This document shows, in pieces, positions 4,750 through 59,460 of a DNA stretch of 64,000 nucleotides. The notes beneath the pieces are model-generated. The model ran no database searches. It was not told the DNA's origin and saw only the letters and a program-made list of their open reading frames with translations. Within the stretch, counting starts at the first letter, position 1; each line of letters starts with the position of its first letter. The position numbers were made by a program, and so were the translations under genes. Source of the stretch: Promicromonospora sp. AC04 (GTDB taxonomy: Bacteria; Actinomycetota; Actinomycetes; Actinomycetales; Cellulomonadaceae); the NCBI RefSeq assembly GCF_003058225.1, contig NZ_QBUG01000009.1, positions 186,001 through 250,000 on the forward strand, written 5' to 3'.

Positions 4750-4840
4750 GCGAGGTCGGCAGTTCGCACCCTGGAGTCGGCAGTTGGCATCGAGATCGGT
4801 ACAGGCCTGAGCCGACCTCGATGCCAACTGCCGACCTCGC
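4750..4840. repeat. Intergenic inverted repeat with alternative outer arm
   Basis: Main arms 4776-4799 and 4812-4835 match at 23 of 24 positions. A second copy of the arm end at 4750-4764 is exactly complementary to 4826-4840, so two mutually exclusive hairpins can form. The repeat sits between the convergent FAD oxidoreductase and cydC. There is no T-tract. Confidence 0.8.
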
Positions 4841-16132: not shown

Positions 16133-17281
16133 ATGACAACGACCGCCGCGAGGCCGACAACCACCCGCCTGGGGTACGTCGACAACCTGCGGATCCTGCT
16201 GACCGTGCTGGTCCTGGCGCACCACAGCGCCGTGACCTACGGCGCGCTCCCGATCTGGTACTGGACCGAGCCGAGCGACAGCCCCTCGGGCATCGCGCTG
16301 ATGCTGTTCGTGATCGTCAACCAGTTCTACTTCATGGGCTTCTTCTTCCTGCTCTCCGGCCTGTTCACCCCCGGGTCGGTGGACCGCAAGGGGCCGGGCG
16401 CCTTCGCCCGGGACCGGCTGATCCGCCTCGGGGTCCCGCTGGTGGCGTTCTGGCTGGTGGCGCGGCCGGTACTGTCGCTTCCGCAGTGGCCGGACCGCAG
16501 GGCGCAGGGGGAGTCGTTCCTGCAGTTCTGGTTCACCGTGGGCGACGTCGGACCGCTGTGGTTCGTCGAGGTGCTCCTGGTGATGTCGCTCGCGTACGCC
16601 GCCTTCCGTGCGCTTCGCGCCCGGTCCGCCGCCCGGACCGAGGTGGCCGACGCCGGGGCGCGCACCGTGGTCGATGCCGAGCCCCGCCCCGTCAGCTTCC
16701 GCACGATCGCCGGGCTCGTGGCGCTGCTGACGGTCGTGTCGTTCCTGTGGCGGCTCGTGGTGCCGACCGGAACCTACTGGACGGCCGTCGGGCTGCCCTC
16801 GCCGGCGTACCTGCCGCAGTACGTGATCCTCTTCGTGGTCGGCCTGCTGGCGACCCGGCGCGGGTGGCTCGCCGCGCTCACCGGGCGGCAGGGCCGGGTG
16901 GCGCTGGTCGTGGCGCTCGTCAGCGTGGGACTGGCGCTCGGAACGGTCGCCCTCGCGACGGCGCCCGGCGCCGGGGCCCTTGCCCTGCTGGGCGCCAGCC
17001 TTGCCGAGAACGTCTTCGCGGTGAGCGCGATCGTCGCGCTGCTGGTGCTGTTCCGGGAGAAGTTCTCCGGTCAGCCCGCGTGGGCGAGGCTCGCCGCGCA
17101 GAACTCGTTCGCGGTGTACGTGATCCACCCGTTGGTGCTGGTCGGCGTCGCGATGCTCTTCGCGCCGCTGGTCGCCCCGGCGGGCGTTAAGTTCCTGATC
17201 CTCATGGTGCTAGCGGTGCCGCTGTGCTGGGGGTTCGCCTACCTGCTGCGACGCATCCCGGGCGTGGCGCGGGTGCTGTAG
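16133..17281 (+). CDS. Acyltransferase 3 family membrane protein (OpgC-like)
   Basis: 382-residue polytopic membrane protein with the family opening YVDNLRILLTVLVLAHHSAV, containing the catalytic His of acyltransferase 3 enzymes, about ten hydrophobic segments and a terminal NSFAVYVIHPLVLV segment. Such enzymes transfer acetyl or succinyl groups onto glycans or lipids at the membrane; this arrangement resembles glucan-modifying OpgC. ATG at 16133 has GGAG six bases upstream. It is monocistronic, after the rne terminator and before a long hairpin. Acceptor unknown. Confidence 0.82.
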   Translation: MTTTAARPTTTRLGYVDNLRILLTVLVLAHHSAVTYGALPIWYWTEPSDSPSGIALMLFVIVNQFYFMGFFFLLSGLFTPGSVDRKGPGAFARDRLIRLGVPLVAFWLVARPVLSLPQWPDRRAQGESFLQFWFTVGDVGPLWFVEVLLVMSLAYAAFRALRARSAARTEVADAGARTVVDAEPRPVSFRTIAGLVALLTVVSFLWRLVVPTGTYWTAVGLPSPAYLPQYVILFVVGLLATRRGWLAALTGRQGRVALVVALVSVGLALGTVALATAPGAGALALLGASLAENVFAVSAIVALLVLFREKFSGQPAWARLAAQNSFAVYVIHPLVLVGVAMLFAPLVAPAGVKFLILMVLAVPLCWGFAYLLRRIPGVARVL

Positions 17282-17298
17282 CACGCGGGTCAGGCGAT

Positions 17299-17370
17299 GT
17301 CCGCTTCCACCAAGCACTTGGGCATGCTCCCGGACCGGAAAGCATGCCCAAGTGCTTGGTGGAAAAGGAC
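17299..17370. repeat. Long inverted repeat, shared-core family copy 1
   Basis: Arms 17299-17328 and 17341-17370 match at 28 of 30 positions around a 12-base loop. The arm begins GTCCGCTTCCACCAAGCA, the core shared with elements at 38606 and 58379. It sits between two plus-strand genes (acyltransferase and GNAT). No T-tract follows. Confidence 0.88.
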
Positions 17371-17406
17371 TTCCGGCGGGACCGGGGCTCGGCGAGGATC
17401 AGGCGC

Positions 17407-18093
17407 GTGACATCCGAGACTTACGCCCGCTCCGTGACTCCCGGCGGAATGGTCGTGACCCTCCGCGGCTGGACCGGTCCTGACCTCGACGCCTATCGCG
17501 CATGGTTGCGCCCCGAGCACGACTGGCATCGTTGGGACGGCCCCTACTACCCGGTCCCGACCGGCGAGCAAGCCGATGTCCTGGTCGCGAAGCTGGCCCG
17601 GAGCAACGATCTGACGTGGCCGACGACAGCAGCTCCGACGTCGGGGCCTGCCGCGCCGGCGTCCGCCGCACCGCCGGACGCGCCGACGTCAGATCCCGAG
17701 AGCCTGCCGCCCGGCCGGCTCGTCGTCGACGTCGGTGGCGAGCTGGTCGGGACCGTCGCCTGGTACTGGGAGTCGCGCGAGACGGAATGGGCCCGCTTGG
17801 GCGTCACCGTGTACGACCCGGCGGAACGCGGCCGGGGGATCGGGCGTGCGGCTCTGTCCCTGTGGACGTCGTTCCTGTTCCAGCGCACGCCGTGGGTGCG
17901 GCTGGACTTCGCTACATGGTCCGGCAACCGGGCGATGCTCGGTGTCGGCCGGGCACTGGGCTTCGTGGAGGAGGCGCGGTTCCGGCAGGCCAGGGTCGTC
18001 GACGGCGTCCGCCACGACTCGGTGGTCATGGGTGTGCTGCGGGACGAGTGGCGCGAGCTGCCGGGGCGTCGGCCGGGCTACAGCCCGGCGTAG
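17407..18093 (+). CDS. GNAT family N-acetyltransferase
   Basis: 228-residue acetyltransferase of the RimJ/RimL-like group. The acetyl-CoA binding motif is seen in ERGRGIGRAALSLW, preceded by a beta-bulge strand (TEWARLGVTVYD) and followed by GNRAMLGVGRALGFVEEARFRQ, typical of this group. A Pro/Ala-rich insert of about 25 residues lies mid-protein (about 75-100). GTG at 17407 is favoured because upstream in-frame sequence is the palindrome; an ATG at 17449 is the alternative. The 3' end overlaps the convergent hydrolase by 16 bases. Substrate unknown. Confidence 0.85.
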   Translation: MTSETYARSVTPGGMVVTLRGWTGPDLDAYRAWLRPEHDWHRWDGPYYPVPTGEQADVLVAKLARSNDLTWPTTAAPTSGPAAPASAAPPDAPTSDPESLPPGRLVVDVGGELVGTVAWYWESRETEWARLGVTVYDPAERGRGIGRAALSLWTSFLFQRTPWVRLDFATWSGNRAMLGVGRALGFVEEARFRQARVVDGVRHDSVVMGVLRDEWRELPGRRPGYSPA

Positions 18094-24165: not shown

Positions 24166-24231
24166 ACTGTGCGGGTCCCGGAGCGTGAAATGACCGCGCG
24201 GTTCGGGCGGCAGTACGGAGAGGATGAGGGT

Positions 24232-25428
24232 GTGAACTCCCTCGACCCCTCGGTGAACCCCCACGACGCCCCGGACCTCCAGGACCGCCCGGACGCCCAG
24301 GCCGTCCCGGGCCCCCGGTCCGCGATCGCCACCGCCCGGCGCGTGGTGGTCAAGATCGGCTCGTCGTCGCTCACCGGCCCGGACGGGCACCTCGACGTCG
24401 GCGCGCTGCGCGGGGTGGTCGAGGTGCTGGCCGCCCGGCAGGCCGCGGGAGCCCAGGTCGTGCTGGTCACCTCGGGCGCCGTCTCGGCGGGCATCGGCCC
24501 GCTCGGGCTGGGCACCAGGCCGCGGGACCTCGCCACGATGCAGGCAGCGGCCTCCGTGGGCCAGGGGCAGCTCGTGGGCCGGTACCAGGAGGAGTTCGCG
24601 GCGTTCGGCATCCAGATCGGGCAGATCCTGCTCACGGCCGAGGACACCGTCCGCCGCGCCCGCTACCGCAACGCGCAGCGCGCGCTGGACCGCCTGCTGG
24701 CGCTCGGGGTCGTGCCGGTCATCAACGAGAACGACGCCGTCACCACCGACGAGCTGAAGTTCGGCGACAACGACCGCCTCGCAGCGCTCGTGTCGCACCT
24801 GGTGCGCGCGGACGCCCTGCTGCTCCTGACCGACGTCGACGGCCTGCACGACGCCCCGCCGTCACGCCCCGGCGCCCGTCGCATCCCGCTGGTCGAGGAC
24901 CTCGCGGAGATCTCGGGCGTCGAGGTGACCGCACGCGGCAGCGCCGTCGGGACAGGCGGCATGGTCACCAAGCTGGAGTCGGTGCGGATCGCGACCGGCG
25001 CCGGCGTCCCCGCCGTCCTCACGCTCACCGCCAACGCGGCCGCCGCGCTCGCCGGGGACGACGTCGGCACGTTCTTCACGGCGACCGGCCGCCGCACGTC
25101 GGCGCGCCGGCTGTGGATCGCGCACGCCGCCCGCACGGAGGGCCGCCTCCACCTGGACGACGGCGCCGCGCGCGCCGTCCTCGGCGGCCGAGCGTCCCTG
25201 CTGCCCGCCGGGATCACCAGGGCCGAGGGCCAGTTCGACGCGGGCGACCCGGTCGAGCTCGTCGCGCCGGACGGCGCCGTGGTCGCCCGGGGGCTCGTCG
25301 CCTTCGACGCGAGCGACCTCCCCGCGCTGATCGGACGCTCCACCTACGCGCTGCGCGAGGAGCTGGGGGAGGGGTACGACCGCGTGGTCGTGCACCGGGA
25401 CGACCTGGTGCTGGAGCCCGGCCGATGA
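24232..25428 (+). CDS. proB: Glutamate 5-kinase
   Basis: 398-residue first enzyme of proline biosynthesis (ATP + glutamate to glutamyl-5-phosphate). Amino-acid kinase domain with VVVKIGSSSLT, VTSGAVSAGI, PVINENDAV, FGDNDRLAALV and GTGGMVTKLES, then a C-terminal PUA domain from about residue 300. GTG at 24232 is chosen for the GGAGAGGATGAGGG run just upstream; an ATG at 24190 is in frame. A low-complexity N-terminus of about 25 residues precedes the kinase. Confidence 0.95.
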   Translation: MNSLDPSVNPHDAPDLQDRPDAQAVPGPRSAIATARRVVVKIGSSSLTGPDGHLDVGALRGVVEVLAARQAAGAQVVLVTSGAVSAGIGPLGLGTRPRDLATMQAAASVGQGQLVGRYQEEFAAFGIQIGQILLTAEDTVRRARYRNAQRALDRLLALGVVPVINENDAVTTDELKFGDNDRLAALVSHLVRADALLLLTDVDGLHDAPPSRPGARRIPLVEDLAEISGVEVTARGSAVGTGGMVTKLESVRIATGAGVPAVLTLTANAAAALAGDDVGTFFTATGRRTSARRLWIAHAARTEGRLHLDDGAARAVLGGRASLLPAGITRAEGQFDAGDPVELVAPDGAVVARGLVAFDASDLPALIGRSTYALREELGEGYDRVVVHRDDLVLEPGR

Positions 25429-25466
25429 GGCTGACCGGCCTGGTTGCACTGATCTGACCCTGACTT

Positions 25467-25522
25467 CGGTCCTTTGCCTCGAGATCGGTCCATCGGTTGA
25501 CCGATCTCGAGGCAACGGACCG
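25467..25522. repeat. Intergenic inverted repeat, 24-bp arms
   Basis: Arms 25467-25490 and 25499-25522 match at 23 of 24 positions with an 8-base loop, between proB and proA on the same strand. No T-tract. Confidence 0.85.
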
Positions 25523-25595
25523 ATCTCGCCGAGTTCGGTCCGTCGCCGCGCGTCCGCACCCCGGAATCGCCCTCGGTTTCCACCCTCGCCCGACG

Positions 25596-30295: not shown

Positions 30296-30368
30296 GGGGC
30301 TGTGGCGCAGCTGGTAGCGCACCTGCATGGCATGCAGGGGGTCGGGGGTTCGAGTCCCCCCAGCTCCA
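30296..30368 (+). tRNA. tRNA-Ala, anticodon GGC (copy 1)
   Basis: Full cloverleaf: acceptor GGGGCTG paired with CAGCTCC, anticodon stem CCTGC/GCAGG around loop ATGGCAT (anticodon GGC), T-loop GGTTCGAGTCC, discriminator A. The 3' CCA is not fully encoded (CCG follows). Sequence is identical to copy 2 over the whole gene. Confidence 0.97.
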
Positions 30369-32034: not shown

Positions 32035-32107
32035 GGGGCTGTGGCGCAGCTGGTAGCGCACCTGCATGGCATGCAGGGGGTCGGGGGTTCGAGTCCCCCC
32101 AGCTCCA
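32035..32107 (+). tRNA. tRNA-Ala, anticodon GGC (copy 2)
   Basis: Identical to copy 1 through all 73 bases; here the CCA end is encoded (32108-32110). A weak GAGGCCCC/GGGGCCTC hairpin (32154-32186) follows and may terminate transcription. Confidence 0.97.
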
Positions 32108-38190: not shown

Positions 38191-38568
38191 ATGAGTACCT
38201 GGACAGAGGACGAGCTGAGCCGCGTCGGAGACGCGCGCGAGCTCCAGGTCGCCTCCGAGCGACCCGACGGAACGCTCCGCCCGTACGTGGTCATCTGGCA
38301 CGTCCGGGTGGGCGACGCGATCTACGTCCGCTCCGCGCACGGCCCCGAGAACGGCTGGTTCCGGCGGGCCCAGGCGGCCGGCATCGGGCGGATCAGCTCG
38401 GGCGGCGTCGAGAAGGACGTGCGGTTCGAGGCCGCGGAGCCCGAGCGGGCGGACGACGTCGACGCGACCTACCACGCGAAGTACGACCGGTTCGGGCCGG
38501 GGCCTGTCGGCGCCGTGACCGGGCCGAACGCGCACGAGACGACGCTGCGCGTGGTGCCGCGCGACTGA
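38191..38568 (+). CDS. DUF2255 family protein
   Basis: 125 residues, WTEDELSRVGDARELQVASE start, YVVIWHVRVGDAIYVRSAHG and DATYHAKYDRFG: matches the DUF2255 family, which has a split-barrel-like look of F420/FMN proteins. Twelve bases after the MFS gene, likely same operon. Biochemical role unknown. Confidence 0.85.
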   Translation: MSTWTEDELSRVGDARELQVASERPDGTLRPYVVIWHVRVGDAIYVRSAHGPENGWFRRAQAAGIGRISSGGVEKDVRFEAAEPERADDVDATYHAKYDRFGPGPVGAVTGPNAHETTLRVVPRD

Positions 38569-38605: not shown

Positions 38606-38683
38606 AAGGTCCGCTTCGACCAAGCAGTTGGGCCTGAAACTCACGTGAGTTTCAGGCCCAACTGCTTGGTCGAAGCGGACCTT
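38606..38683. repeat. 78-base perfect palindrome, shared-core family copy 2
   Basis: 39-bp arms (38606-38644 and 38645-38683) are exact complements with no loop bases (centre CACGTG). Arm core GTCCGCTTCGACCAAGCA is shared with copies at 17299 and 58379. It lies between the convergent DUF2255 and decarboxylase genes. No T-tract. Confidence 0.93.
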
Positions 38684-38707: not shown

Positions 38708-39457
38708 CTACTTCGGCGGGGCGACCTCGTCGATCGCGGCCAGCGCGTTGAGCGTGCGCGGGTAGCCGATGTACGGCACGAGCTGCGTGGCGACGTCGAT
38801 CAGCAGACCGCGGTCGTTGCCGACGTTGAGGTTGGCCCCGACGTGCCCCTTGACCTGCGGGTCGCAGCCGCCGAGGGACACCAGCATCGCGAACGTCAGC
38901 AGCTCCCGGGTCGGCACGTCGATGCCCGAGCGCGTCAGGTGGTCGCCGAAGCAGTTCGCCGAGAGCAGCCGCTGGATGTGGGCGGTGTCGTCGGGTGCGG
39001 ACGCGTAGAGCGCCTCGACCTTCGCCGCGCCGGCGATCTCGCGCTGGACGGCCAGCCCTTTCTCCGCGCGGGTCTCGGGGGTCGTCGTCGACCGGCCCGG
39101 CAGCGGCAGGCCGACCCCGTGCTCGGTCAGCACGTCGTTGGTCGCGCGCAGGAAGGCGAGGGTCTTGGCCGCGCCCACGTAGGGGACGGCCTGGTAGACG
39201 ATCTCTTTGACCTCGGTGGGCGTGACGCCGGCGGCCAGCGCCGCGCCGACGGCGGGCCGGTACTCCGCCTCGGCCTGGCACGCGATCAGCGCGGCGAGCT
39301 GGACCATGAACCGGGTCCGCTCGTCGAGGTCGGAGCCGCGCAGCACCTCGTCGGTGGCGAAGGACCCGAAGTAGTCGACGAGCTCCGGGTCCGTGGCGGC
39401 GAGCGCGGCGAGCTGCTCGGCGACAAGCGTGCGGGAATGGTCGTGCGAGGAAGTCAT
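38708..39457 (-). CDS. Carboxymuconolactone decarboxylase family protein, two-domain
   Basis: 249 residues with two CMD-like halves: first ERTRFMVQLAALIACQAEAEYR, EVKEIVYQAVPYVGAAKTLAFL; second TRELLTFAMLVSLGGCDPQVKGH and QLVPYIGYPRTLNAL. The family includes AhpD-like peroxidases and lactone decarboxylases; a CxxC pair is not present. ATG at 39457 gives good spacing from AAAGGA; the adjacent ATG at 39460 is possible. It is transcribed after the aldo/keto reductase. Confidence 0.88.
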   Translation of the reverse strand: MTSSHDHSRTLVAEQLAALAATDPELVDYFGSFATDEVLRGSDLDERTRFMVQLAALIACQAEAEYRPAVGAALAAGVTPTEVKEIVYQAVPYVGAAKTLAFLRATNDVLTEHGVGLPLPGRSTTTPETRAEKGLAVQREIAGAAKVEALYASAPDDTAHIQRLLSANCFGDHLTRSGIDVPTRELLTFAMLVSLGGCDPQVKGHVGANLNVGNDRGLLIDVATQLVPYIGYPRTLNALAAIDEVAPPK

Positions 39458-39497: not shown

Positions 39498-39557
39498 ATC
39501 GACCATGCGGTTGCTGCGAGACCCGGTGTCGGGTTCGGCAGCAACCGCATGGTCGAT
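39498..39557. repeat. Intergenic inverted repeat, 20-bp arms with inner stem
   Basis: Perfect arms 39498-39517 and 39538-39557 enclose a second 5-bp stem (39521-39525 with 39530-39534). It lies between the two minus-strand genes aldo/keto reductase and decarboxylase, twelve bases after the reductase stop. Confidence 0.85.
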
Positions 39558-39569
39558 CGGGGTATGGCC

Positions 39570-40451
39570 TCAGGCCTCGGGGATCTTGAACCCGGCCGTG
39601 TCGAGGGTCAGGGAGGCCGGCTCGGGGCCGCGTCGCACGGCCTTGTCGAGGCCGTCGATGGCGCTCAGCTCGGCATCGGTGAGCTCGAAGTCGAAGACGT
39701 CGAAGTTCTCCTCGATCCGATGCGGCGTCACCGACTTGGGGATGGCCGACCGGCCCTCCTGCAGGTGCCAGCGCAGCATCACCTGGGCCGCCGTCTTGCC
39801 GTGAGTCTTGGCGATGCCCGCGATAGTGGGGTCGTCGAGCGTGCTGCCGCCCTCGCCCTCGCGGTAGAAGGTGATGCCGCCGATCGGGGACCAGGCCTGC
39901 GAGAGGATGCCGTGCTCGGCGTCCGCGGCCAGCACGTCGCGCTGGGCGAAGTACGGGTGGATCTCGATCTGGTTCACCGCCGGCACCACCGACGTCGCGT
40001 CGAGGAGCTTGTCGAGGTCCTCCCGCATGAAGTTGCTGACGCCGATCGCGCGGACCTTGCCGTCGGCGAGCAGCTGCTCCAGCGCCCGGTATGCCTCGAT
40101 CGTGAGGTCGAAGCGCGTGGGCAGCGGCTGGTGCAGGATCAGCAGGTCGAGCTGGTCGACGCCGAGCTTGCCCGCGGACTTCTCGAACGCGTGCAGCGTG
40201 GCGTCGTAGCCGTAGTCGCTGATCCAGACCTTGGTCTCGATGAAGATCTCGGACCGGTCGAGCCCGGAGCGGCGGATCGCCTCGCCCACCTCGCGCTCGT
40301 TGCCGTAGGCGGCGGCCGTGTCGATGTGGCGGTAGCCGGTCCGCAGCGCGGCCTCTACCGCGGTCACGGTCTCGTCGGGCGGCGTCTGGAAGACGCCGAA
40401 GCCCAGGCCGGGCAGCTCGACGCCGTTGTTCAGGGTCAGGTTCGTGTTCAT
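39570..40451 (-). CDS. Aldo/keto reductase (AKR5-like)
   Basis: 293 residues. Catalytic tetrad visible: Asp and Tyr in IDTAAAYGNEREVG, Lys in ETKVW, His in LILHQPL; NADPH-binding end IPKSVTPHRIEEN. Resembles 2,5-diketo-D-gluconate reductase-type enzymes with broad carbonyl substrates. ATG at 40451 has an AGGAGGAGA site. It belongs to a redox gene cluster with decarboxylase, cupin and Atu4866-type genes. Confidence 0.93.
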   Translation of the reverse strand: MNTNLTLNNGVELPGLGFGVFQTPPDETVTAVEAALRTGYRHIDTAAAYGNEREVGEAIRRSGLDRSEIFIETKVWISDYGYDATLHAFEKSAGKLGVDQLDLLILHQPLPTRFDLTIEAYRALEQLLADGKVRAIGVSNFMREDLDKLLDATSVVPAVNQIEIHPYFAQRDVLAADAEHGILSQAWSPIGGITFYREGEGGSTLDDPTIAGIAKTHGKTAAQVMLRWHLQEGRSAIPKSVTPHRIEENFDVFDFELTDAELSAIDGLDKAVRRGPEPASLTLDTAGFKIPEA

Positions 40452-54032: not shown

Positions 54033-54101
54033 CTTGGTTGTGGGCGCGACCGTTGCGACGACGTGTCCGTCATAGGCGCAACGATCGCGCCCACAACCAA
54101 G
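54033..54101. repeat. Intergenic inverted repeat, 25-bp arms
   Basis: Arms 54033-54057 and 54077-54101 match at 24 of 25 positions, starting two bases after the dehydrogenase stop and reaching the stop of the convergent SorC gene. Confidence 0.88.
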
Positions 54102-57519: not shown

Positions 57520-58356
57520 ATGTCCGACGTGACGCGCGCGTACCGCCGTCGAACCACCGGTGGCGTGCTGACCACGCTGACCTGGTTGCTGGCGCTCGCC
57601 TTCTTCTTCCCGGTGGCCTGGATGGCGGCCACGGCGTTCAAGCAGGAGAGCCAGGCGGCGTCCGACCCGCCGACGTGGTTCTTCACGCCGACGCTCGACC
57701 AGTTCCGCGCGGTGATCGAGGGCGGGTCCGCGGCCTACGTGGGCAACTCCGCGATCGCCACCGGGGTCTCCACCGTGCTGGTGCTGCTCCTCGGGATCCC
57801 GGCGGCGTACGCGCTGTCGATCCGGCCGGTGGAGAAGGTCAGCGACGTGCTGTTCTTCTTCATCTCCACCAAGATGCTGCCGGTCGTGGCCGTCATCGTG
57901 CCGATCTACGTGGTGGCCGGGCAGCTCAAGGTGCTCGACAACATCTGGACCCTGGTGGTCCTGTACACGGCGATGAACCTGCCGATCGCGGTGTGGATGA
58001 TGCGGTCGTTCTTCCTGGAGGTGCCCGGCGAGGTGCTGGAGGCGGCGTCCGTCGACGGCGCCGGGCTGATGCGGACCCTGCGCTCCGTGCTCATCCCGAT
58101 GGTGGCGCCCGGCATCGCGGCGACCGCGCTGATCTGCGTGATCTTCGCGTGGAACGAGTTCTTCTTCGCGCTCAACCTCACGGCGTCGCGCGCGGCGACC
58201 GTGCCGGTGCTCATCGTGTCGACGATGACGAGCGAGGGCCTGTTCCTGGCCCGGCTGTGCGCGGCGGCGCTGCTCGCCTCGCTCCCCGTGATCATCGCGG
58301 GCTGGGTGGCGCAGAAGCAGCTGGTGCGCGGGCTGTCGATGGGCGCGATCAAGTAG
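57520..58356 (+). CDS. Carbohydrate ABC transporter permease (MalG-like)
   Basis: 278 residues, six helices, EAA loop EAASVDGAGLMRTLRSVLIP, terminal LVRGLSMGAIK typical of MalG-type permeases. ATG at 57520 with AAGGAG upstream. No ATPase gene follows; actinobacterial importers of this type often share a distant MsiK-like ATPase. Confidence 0.93.
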   Translation: MSDVTRAYRRRTTGGVLTTLTWLLALAFFFPVAWMAATAFKQESQAASDPPTWFFTPTLDQFRAVIEGGSAAYVGNSAIATGVSTVLVLLLGIPAAYALSIRPVEKVSDVLFFFISTKMLPVVAVIVPIYVVAGQLKVLDNIWTLVVLYTAMNLPIAVWMMRSFFLEVPGEVLEAASVDGAGLMRTLRSVLIPMVAPGIAATALICVIFAWNEFFFALNLTASRAATVPVLIVSTMTSEGLFLARLCAAALLASLPVIIAGWVAQKQLVRGLSMGAIK

Positions 58357-58378
58357 GGGTCGCGCCCCGGATCTGGAA

Positions 58379-58450
58379 GTCCGCTTCTACCAAGCAGTTA
58401 GGCCTGCAAACCTTGAGGTTTGCAGGCCTAACTGCTTGGTAGAAGCGGAC
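58379..58450. repeat. 72-base perfect inverted repeat, shared-core family copy 3
   Basis: 35-bp arms (58379-58413 and 58416-58450) are exact complements around a TG loop. Arm core GTCCGCTTCTACCAAGCA is shared with copies at 17299 and 38606. It lies after the permease, before endonuclease I. The 279-base gap holds no other gene. Confidence 0.93.
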
Positions 58451-58635
58451 CTCGCTGGTGTCCCTGTGGCGTGACTGCTCGGATGGTTGGGGTGGGTCCA
58501 GGCAAAGTGGGTGATGTCGGTAGATTTCACCCAATGTTTACTGATGGCATGACAGGCCACGGTCGTGGCATGGAAGTGTGGACGGCGCACCGTTGCCCGC
58601 AGGGGGCTGCGGGCCGACTCACACGGAGGTCGACG

Positions 58636-59460
58636 ATGCGCACAAGTCTCGGACGGGCTTGGGGGAGCGGACTGTCCGCACTCGTGGTTGCTGCCGGGGT
58701 GCTGGCGGCACCGGGAGCGGTCGCACAGGACGTCGCGGTGCAGGACGGCGGGGCCCTGGTCGCCGCGGACATCCCGGCCGGCTACTACGACAGCGCGGCG
58801 GGCCTGACGGGTGAGGCGCTGAAGTCCGAGCTGAACGACATCATCAGCGACAGCGACCAGCTCTCCTACAGCCAGGTGTGGACGGCGCTGATGGCCACCG
58901 ACGAGGACCCCAACAACTCCAGCAACGTGATCCTCCTGTACGGCGGGCAGTCGCGCTCCAAGAGCCTCAACGGCGGCGACGTCGGCGACTGGAACCGCGA
59001 GCACGTGTGGGCCCAGTCGCACGGCGACTTCGGCACGTCGGCCGGCCCCGGCACCGACCTGCACCACCTGCGCCCCGAGGACGTGCAGGTCAACAGCATC
59101 CGCGGCAACAAGGACTTCGACAACGGCGGCAGCGCCGTCAGCGGCGCGCCGGGCAGCTTCACCGACTCGAACTCCTTCGAACCGCGTGACGCGGTCAAGG
59201 GCGACGTCGCGCGCATGATCCTCTACATGGCGGTGCGCTACGAGGGCGAGGACAGCTTCGCCGACCTGGAGCCCAACGACACCGCCGGCAACGGCTCGGT
59301 CCCGTTCCACGGCAGGCTCTCGGTGCTGCTGGCCTGGAACAACGAGGACCCGGTGTCCGCGTCCGAGGCTGACCGGAACGACATCATCTACGAGGACTAC
59401 CAGCACAACCGGAACCCGTTCATCGACCACCCGGAGTGGGCGGACGCCATCTGGGGCTGA
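58636..59460 (+). CDS. Secreted endonuclease I family nuclease
   Basis: 274 residues. Signal peptide (1 to about 32, AAPGAVAQ). Endonuclease I core: DWNREHVWAQSHG, TDLHHLRPEDVQVNSIRGN and DNGG, the metal-finger His/Asn set of Vvn/EndA and BsnI enzymes; later VKGDVARMILYMAVRYEG and the terminal NRNPFIDHPEW. Degrades extracellular DNA/RNA. ATG at 58636 with GGAGG seven bases upstream; earlier in-frame codons are rejected. Confidence 0.92.
   Translation: MRTSLGRAWGSGLSALVVAAGVLAAPGAVAQDVAVQDGGALVAADIPAGYYDSAAGLTGEALKSELNDIISDSDQLSYSQVWTALMATDEDPNNSSNVILLYGGQSRSKSLNGGDVGDWNREHVWAQSHGDFGTSAGPGTDLHHLRPEDVQVNSIRGNKDFDNGGSAVSGAPGSFTDSNSFEPRDAVKGDVARMILYMAVRYEGEDSFADLEPNDTAGNGSVPFHGRLSVLLAWNNEDPVSASEADRNDIIYEDYQHNRNPFIDHPEWADAIWG

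Follow-up and report, generated by a model that had tools for sequence, protein, structure and literature searches.

Hairpins of a genus-wide, terminator-like family at gene ends in Promicromonospora

Repeated stem-loops at gene ends are an already known kind of element. In surveys of 40 genomes, repeated stem-loops, some forming families, were concentrated 3' of genes and between convergent ones (PMC1590033, PMC2267715). The hairpins described here resemble the stem-loop families treated in the relevant passages of these surveys in being repeated at gene ends and in forming, in part, families, but their arms are longer and several families coexist, differing even at one orthologous site; Promicromonospora is not named in those passages. 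Streptomyces intrinsic terminators mapped by Term-seq carry 3–4 U in the first 10 nt, according to the sections that describe them (PMC12207403). The Promicromonospora hairpins are likewise long, stable and U-poor, with covariation around a hairpin consensus, but, unlike the Streptomyces terminators as presented there, their arm sequence is common to dozens of unrelated genes. One repeated sequence also forms many stems in the DNA-uptake-sequence terminators of Neisseria and Pasteurellaceae; the uptake word, in the part of that study concerned with it (PMC1852404), is approximately 9–11 nt long and present in about 1000 or more copies, compared to a Promicromonospora arm of approximately 28 nt or longer. 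Repetitive extragenic palindromes (REPs) are 20–40 bp long and usually exceed 100 copies, as the pertinent passages report (PMC2817692, PMC3116915). Like the hairpins studied here, they are dispersed palindromes near 3' ends, with lineage-specific sequence and occasional clusters (PMC3733652, in its sections on REP placement); unlike REPs as characterized in these sections, the Promicromonospora hairpins have neither a RAYT transposase nor a GTAG/CGTC tag, measure about 72 nt and number in the tens. In the literature searched, we found no description of this family or of families interchanging between species where orthologous genes end.

We analysed a 64,000-nt stretch of the genome of the soil actinobacterium Promicromonospora sp. 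AC04 (hereafter, the window), in which a first-pass annotation had noted three dispersed palindromes. All three lie where it placed them and top the window's list of inverted repeats by length (39 nt with 100 per cent, 38 nt with 97 per cent and 33 nt with 91 per cent complementarity; Table 1). Inverted-repeat scores in the window begin with 39, 35, 24 and 23, and 16 of them reach at least 14, whereas among 20 first-order Markov windows of 64 kb each the best score was 14, attained in three, with the rest below 14. The common arm GTCCGCTTCnACCAAGCA, followed by nTTnGGCnTG, is present in the three copies, and their variable arm bases are matched by complementary bases on the opposite arm, both as claimed. 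The outer right arm of copy 1 (GAAAAGGAC) is imperfectly paired. Copy 1 begins 17 nt past the stop codon of an acyltransferase gene (16133–17281, plus strand) and is followed by a GNAT gene (17449–18093, plus strand); copy 3 begins 22 nt past the stop codon of a transport permease gene (57520–58356, plus strand) and is followed by an endonuclease I gene (58738–59460, plus strand); copy 2 occupies the convergent spacer between a DUF2255 gene (38191–38568, plus strand) and a CMD-family gene (38708–39457, minus strand). The neighbouring genes are unrelated, as the annotation held, yet the three hairpins are alike in position, each lying at a gene's 3' end. The exact arm motif has 19 strand matches, corresponding to 12 loci, in the 6.85-Mb genome, where its reversed control has none. 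A DNA-uptake-sequence terminator was rejected as a candidate: instead of a short word with many unpaired copies, we found paired hairpins at all 12 motif loci.

Table 1. Hairpins located in the window.
Feature	Coordinates	Strand	Basis or context
Hairpin copy 1	17296..17373	.	Inverted-repeat listing, covariance model, gene calls
Hairpin copy 2	38606..38683	.	Perfect 39-bp palindrome, loop-free
Hairpin copy 3	58376..58453	.	Inverted-repeat listing, covariance model, gene calls
Second-family hairpin (GACCATGCGGTTGCT)	39498..39557	.	3' of minus-strand gene 39570-40451; relatives L079, L080
Third-family hairpin (TCGAGATCGGT)	4776..4835	.	Between convergent genes
Third-family hairpin	25466..25523	.	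3' of gene 24190-25428 (plus strand)
Fourth-family hairpin	54033..54101	.	Between convergent genes; three members in own-genome stretches

A covariance model built from 12 copies and searched against the same genome at E ≤ 1 returned 80 strand rows, or 41 places; 150 of the 3626 candidates were scored, so that weak copies were missed. Two of the 41 matches (C3:93939 and C10:14847) belong to another hairpin family, and a strict scan allowing lengths of 70–74 nt kept 35 copies, one of which (L064 6403) lies outside the 41. The model also matched all 12 other Promicromonospora genomes and 6 of 24 genomes from other genera of the bacterial family, where several matches are weak or represent different hairpin types, and none of the 22 genomes from other bacterial families. 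The annotation had proposed a dispersed hairpin family, to be sought with a covariance model in the genome and its relatives and to be given up if no further copies turned up; further copies turned up in both, and the genus-wide family of terminator-like hairpins is real. A pattern representing two subfamilies found 39 stretches in named genomes, all of them Promicromonospora (P. kroppenstedtii, P. sukumoe, sp. MEB111 and P. thailandica). There were no matches to the two-arm pattern in viral contigs, to the first version of the pattern in genome contigs, or to copy 2 in blastn searches of plasmid and phage collections. A subfamily with the GTCCGCTTCGAGAAC arm is common to the Promicromonospora sp. 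AC04 genome (L070, L072, L076) and to another genus (G014, L041), and the hairpin family therefore either predates the genus or was transferred. Among the matches listed, genome G005 has clusters of two to four family hairpins spaced by approximately 90–280 nt (L168, L160, L159, L173, L163), and in L159 and L160 these alternate with another hairpin type bearing the TGTGTTGCTC arm. Two further G005 stretches with a family hairpin lie in repeated DNA at approximately 3.69–3.72 Mb of C1: L171 repeats itself in inverted orientation over 19 kb (99.85 per cent), and L172 repeats 8.1 kb of L171.

The element is a near-palindrome (GTCCGC...GCGGAC) of near-constant length, 71–72 nt: all 35 strictly scanned copies measure 72 nt, 34 of 40 copies in G005 measure 71 nt and the other six 72 nt, and in G010 the corresponding numbers are 28 and 2 of 30. 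Across the 35 copies, 92.2 per cent of cells are paired, 22 of 30 pairs have changed on both arms, and the covariation score is 0.355, compared to a shuffled mean of 0.134 (reached in 0 of 500 shuffles) and to 0.040–0.079 with partners slid; these copies were picked partly for pairing, which favours the figures. In many copies the tip is unpaired and the stem still pairs, and the median fold energy is −57 kcal/mol. Within a lineage, the arms are nearly fixed, beyond the needs of pairing.

With respect to genes called by a codon-usage-based finder, the 41 places comprise 22 tandem, 18 convergent and 1 divergent spacer. The expectation from spacer length, with a background drawn from stretches selected for hairpins, is 53 per cent tandem, 19 per cent convergent and 28 per cent divergent, so that convergent spacers are in excess (P = 2e-4) and divergent ones in deficit (P = 2e-5). 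Relatives show 28 convergent, 27 tandem, 0 divergent and 4 edge positions at 59 loci, a number that includes places counted twice and five loci of other genera. In a set of 149 copies deduplicated by sequence, 62 are convergent, 80 tandem and 5 divergent, and the 2 with one neighbour were excluded from the orientation tests, as were copies too near a locus end from the flank tests. Among 185 stop-to-stem distances (kept between −60 and 400 nt), the median is 32 nt and 76 per cent fall within 60 nt. Position alone is not decisive, because REPs too sit in convergent and tandem spacers close to 3' ends, as the passages on their placement state (PMC3733652).

A hairpin that acts as RNA would be expected to tolerate wobble pairs in its transcribed strand and to carry a U-rich tail there but not on the opposite strand. 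At tandem sites, T occupies 27 per cent of positions +4 to +9, compared to 13 per cent for A at the mirror positions, and with one copy per locus the U-tail is significant in G000, the Promicromonospora sp. AC04 genome (P = 0.023), in G005 (P = 0.0095), in G010 (P = 0.015) and in the rest (P = 0.015), four sets that overlap in orthologous sites and so are only partly independent. The flanks are symmetric at convergent sites, and spacers without the family contain A at 0.149 and T at 0.161. The median U count in the first 10 nt is 4, part of which falls in an AAGG/CCTT extension of the stem. Other hairpins of these genomes have a weaker tail (T 137 vs. A 97 of 684; P = 0.005). Wobble is also skewed: tandem sites have 77 G-U and 42 A-C (P = 0.0017), and convergent sites 43 and 32, which is not a significant difference. 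With one copy per locus, the G-U:A-C counts are uneven (19:8, 11:7, 14:4 and 25:17), and of 71 copies G-U exceeds A-C in 28, with the reverse in 15 (P = 0.066). The U-tail is the firmer signal of the two. Of the options that the annotation had offered, a structured RNA is thus backed by position after stop codons, a weak but one-sided U-tail and a modest G-U excess in the transcribed sense.

Taken together with the Streptomyces-like U count, these features lead us to consider it likely, as a reading of sequence features, that this dispersed family, found throughout the genus, consists of long and very stable terminators of the intrinsic type. RNA polymerase leaving a gene would transcribe the palindrome, a stem of approximately 28–39 bp would form, and this stem, with the short U-rich stretch behind it, would end the transcript and cap its 3' end. 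In a convergent spacer, one palindrome would serve both strands; we infer both this two-sidedness and the termination activity. Matched arm changes would persist through selection against broken-stem transcripts and through template switching that copies one arm onto the other and flips the loop. Some observations sit awkwardly with the terminator reading: 5 of the 149 copies lie between divergent genes, terminators do not need a fixed arm sequence, yet the arms are nearly fixed within a lineage, and the G-U excess is uneven among sets while REPs share such positions.

Many copies were inherited in place, since 18 of the 29 stretches from G005 have flanking genes in common with a hairpin stretch of G010. 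Hairpin sequence nevertheless tends to track lineage. In six of eight comparisons of copies from the Promicromonospora sp. AC04 genome with orthologs in G005, G009 and G010, orthologs do not exceed non-orthologs in likeness (within 0.03); ortholog arms at L061 and in the two comparisons at L049 are 0.62–0.66 identical, compared to 0.63–0.67 for non-orthologs and 0.77–0.91 within a genome. The exception is L050, for which both comparisons show the subfamily kept across species (0.77 vs. 0.68–0.71 for non-orthologs). In the common subfamily, only one of nine one-to-one pairs between G005 and G010 beats its best non-ortholog, in a comparison that favours non-orthologs because these were taken in the better of two orientations and orthologs in one fixed orientation; when both are allowed, ortholog loops are more alike. 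The likeness of non-orthologs in G005 and G010 could reflect constraint plus saturation at free positions. A tenth pair, of another subfamily (L180/L209), scores 0.90, compared to 0.54 for the non-ortholog. This site-specific likeness at L050 and L180/L209, together with the Promicromonospora sp. AC04 copy at L064, which belongs to the subfamily common in G005 and G010, argues against simple concerted evolution. The pair of L058 with L165/L210 was set aside, as its hairpins lie on opposite sides of the common gene.

Individual sites differ in what they hold. At the copy-3 site, 6 of 12 genomes have the family (whole in G000 and G009, with new outer arms in G010 and G005, as a core in G002 and diverged in G003), two have other hairpins, and four have none of such kind. 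Among 13 genomes at the copy-1 site, G000 and G004 have the family, G012 and G009 have diverged forms whose 3' flank is the same, G001 has a TCGAGATCGGT-type hairpin that is a relative of the one at 25466..25523 in the window, and G010 and G006 have another hairpin, also found at the copy-3 site of G008; no family member was seen there in the remaining six. At the convergent site L201, G010 has the studied family, whereas the G005 hairpin there is of a different dispersed family that also occurs in the Promicromonospora sp. AC04 genome. The CMD gene adjoining copy 2 has a DNA match in only 1 of 13 genomes, which suggests that copy 2 arrived within its own lineage, alone or with its neighbours. 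A gene between two family hairpins (L049 in G000, L208 in G010) is flipped in G005 (L179), possibly through an inversion between hairpins.

Across 98 orthologous loop pairs of one subfamily, which are not independent, the mean score is 8.86, compared to 6.95 for non-orthologs (P = 9e-5). Scores of at least 13 occur in 22 of the 98, approximately twice the non-ortholog rate of 11.8 per cent, so that about half of the 22 could be due to chance; 11 are direct and 11 inverted. At one orthologous site with partly alignable flanks in four species, G005 has AGCGATTGGG, G006 has AGTCGTCGGG and G009 has AGTCCTTGGG, each arm-matched; the G010 arms are mismatched, and the loop between them reads as the G006 loop in exact reverse complement. 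From RNA genes, matched changes of several bases, together with loop inversions, have been proposed as marks of template switching (PMC8794818, in the portions that deal with such marks). The matched arms and the flipped loop are as expected from template switching during replication; we infer this mechanism from the pattern, because recombination between arms flips loops likewise.

The annotation's other option was a REP- or MITE-like element. In this reading, the hairpin would be a mobile palindrome moved by a transposase that acts on the folded strand, with effects on transcript ends secondary and build-up behind genes explained by insertion being tolerated there. Dozens of near-identical copies with unrelated flanks, a lineage-specific consensus, the hairpin clusters of G005 and the location of copy 2 beside a rarely shared gene would all fit such mobility. 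Against this option, PF01797 (IS200-type transposases and RAYT, the type that the annotation had suggested seeking elsewhere in the genome) matched 0 of 13 genomes in a search whose control matched in 5 of 14, although RAYT has been lost in some REP-bearing species, as noted in passages of PMC3733652. A GTAG tag near the end occurs in 4 of 149 copies (9.1 expected by chance) and a CGTC tag in 14 of 149 (44.4 expected), and flanking direct repeats of at least 4 nt were found in 0–4 of 148–149 copies at any of nine boundaries, indicating no target duplication. A search for empty sites in sister strains, likewise suggested, found no clean one. One apparent insertion into a conserved spacer was rejected: G010 has a family hairpin at L196 (3945–4170) and G005 a short spacer at L234, but G006 has a phosphotransferase-family gene there (L257), so that the pair yields no insertion boundaries. 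The family also misses the REP size and number, with about 72 nt and 41 own-genome matches among the 150 of 3626 candidates scored. Inheritance in place of many copies and a tail on one side only, unexpected if the element is symmetric, further make a mobile palindrome unlikely. The hairpins are REP-like in look, fail those REP-defining tests that were run and, as far as sequence can indicate, are terminator-like in action.

A hairpin at the RNA 3' end might alternatively protect or process mRNA, as an exonuclease barrier or a double-strand RNase site, or bind a protein that reads the arms, with termination occurring elsewhere. This would account for arm positions that are nearly fixed within a lineage beyond pairing needs, but a U-tail is a requirement of intrinsic terminators, and unrelated families take the same positions, even at one orthologous site, so that arm sequence is not required there; we regard this explanation as improbable. 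A further alternative is a purely DNA-level element, such as a cruciform or protein-binding palindrome (for example, in chromosome organisation) kept palindromic by template switching alone and with no RNA role. Loop-free perfect palindromes such as copy 2 and the inversion of loops are compatible with it, but the U-tail and the excess of G-U are oriented with the upstream gene and divergent spacers are avoided, and we give it very little credence.

Returning to the terminator reading, we tentatively suggest, without considering it probable, that gene ends in this genus draw on a pool of several interchangeable, dispersed palindrome families, so that an orthologous end may bear one family in one species and another in the next. 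Within each lineage, dozens of loci would be homogenised to a single consensus on both arms, and copies would multiply with no transposase of their own; template switching would maintain the match between arms and invert loops, and ectopic copying from one palindrome to another would spread the sequence. If so, these terminators, instead of having evolved site by site, would make up a repeat family that is homogenised. If the interchange holds, terminators of high-GC bacteria could be copied as units, and dispersed palindromes could multiply without RAYT. For the origin and upkeep of long, perfectly paired RNA stems, template switching has been put forward on the basis of RNA genes in the relevant portions of PMC8794818; each genome studied here has dozens of hairpins, many of them at sites orthologous between related species, and their matched arms and inverted loops make that proposal testable, so that the family offers material for studying the spread and continued pairing of long hairpins. 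Strong covariation among dispersed copies alone does not imply a riboswitch or a small RNA.

The fetched stretches of three genomes (1.135 Mb) contain 249 strong hairpins, which single-linkage clustering of this sample, biased towards the studied family, placed in groups of at most 94, 23, 20, 17, 14 and 7 members, with 38 lacking a relative; several of the groups with two members represent orthologs from two species. Five hairpins (L234 13244, L196 1974, L231 4450, L205 7632 and L051 2037), all between convergent genes, have arms made of repeated units of approximately 15 nt of the GCGAAGTAGAAC type. The annotation could not match its palindromes to a named family, and this holds at the Rfam gathering score: in seven sources including the window (115,706 bases), there was no match of the hairpins to any family, and only two tRNAs and a c-di-AMP riboswitch were found. 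The riboswitch (RF00379) lies at 2754–2905 of the window on the minus strand, upstream of a minus-strand gene (1829–2752), and the two tRNA genes (30296–30368 and 32035–32107) are approximately 1.7 kb apart and have equal Rfam scores.
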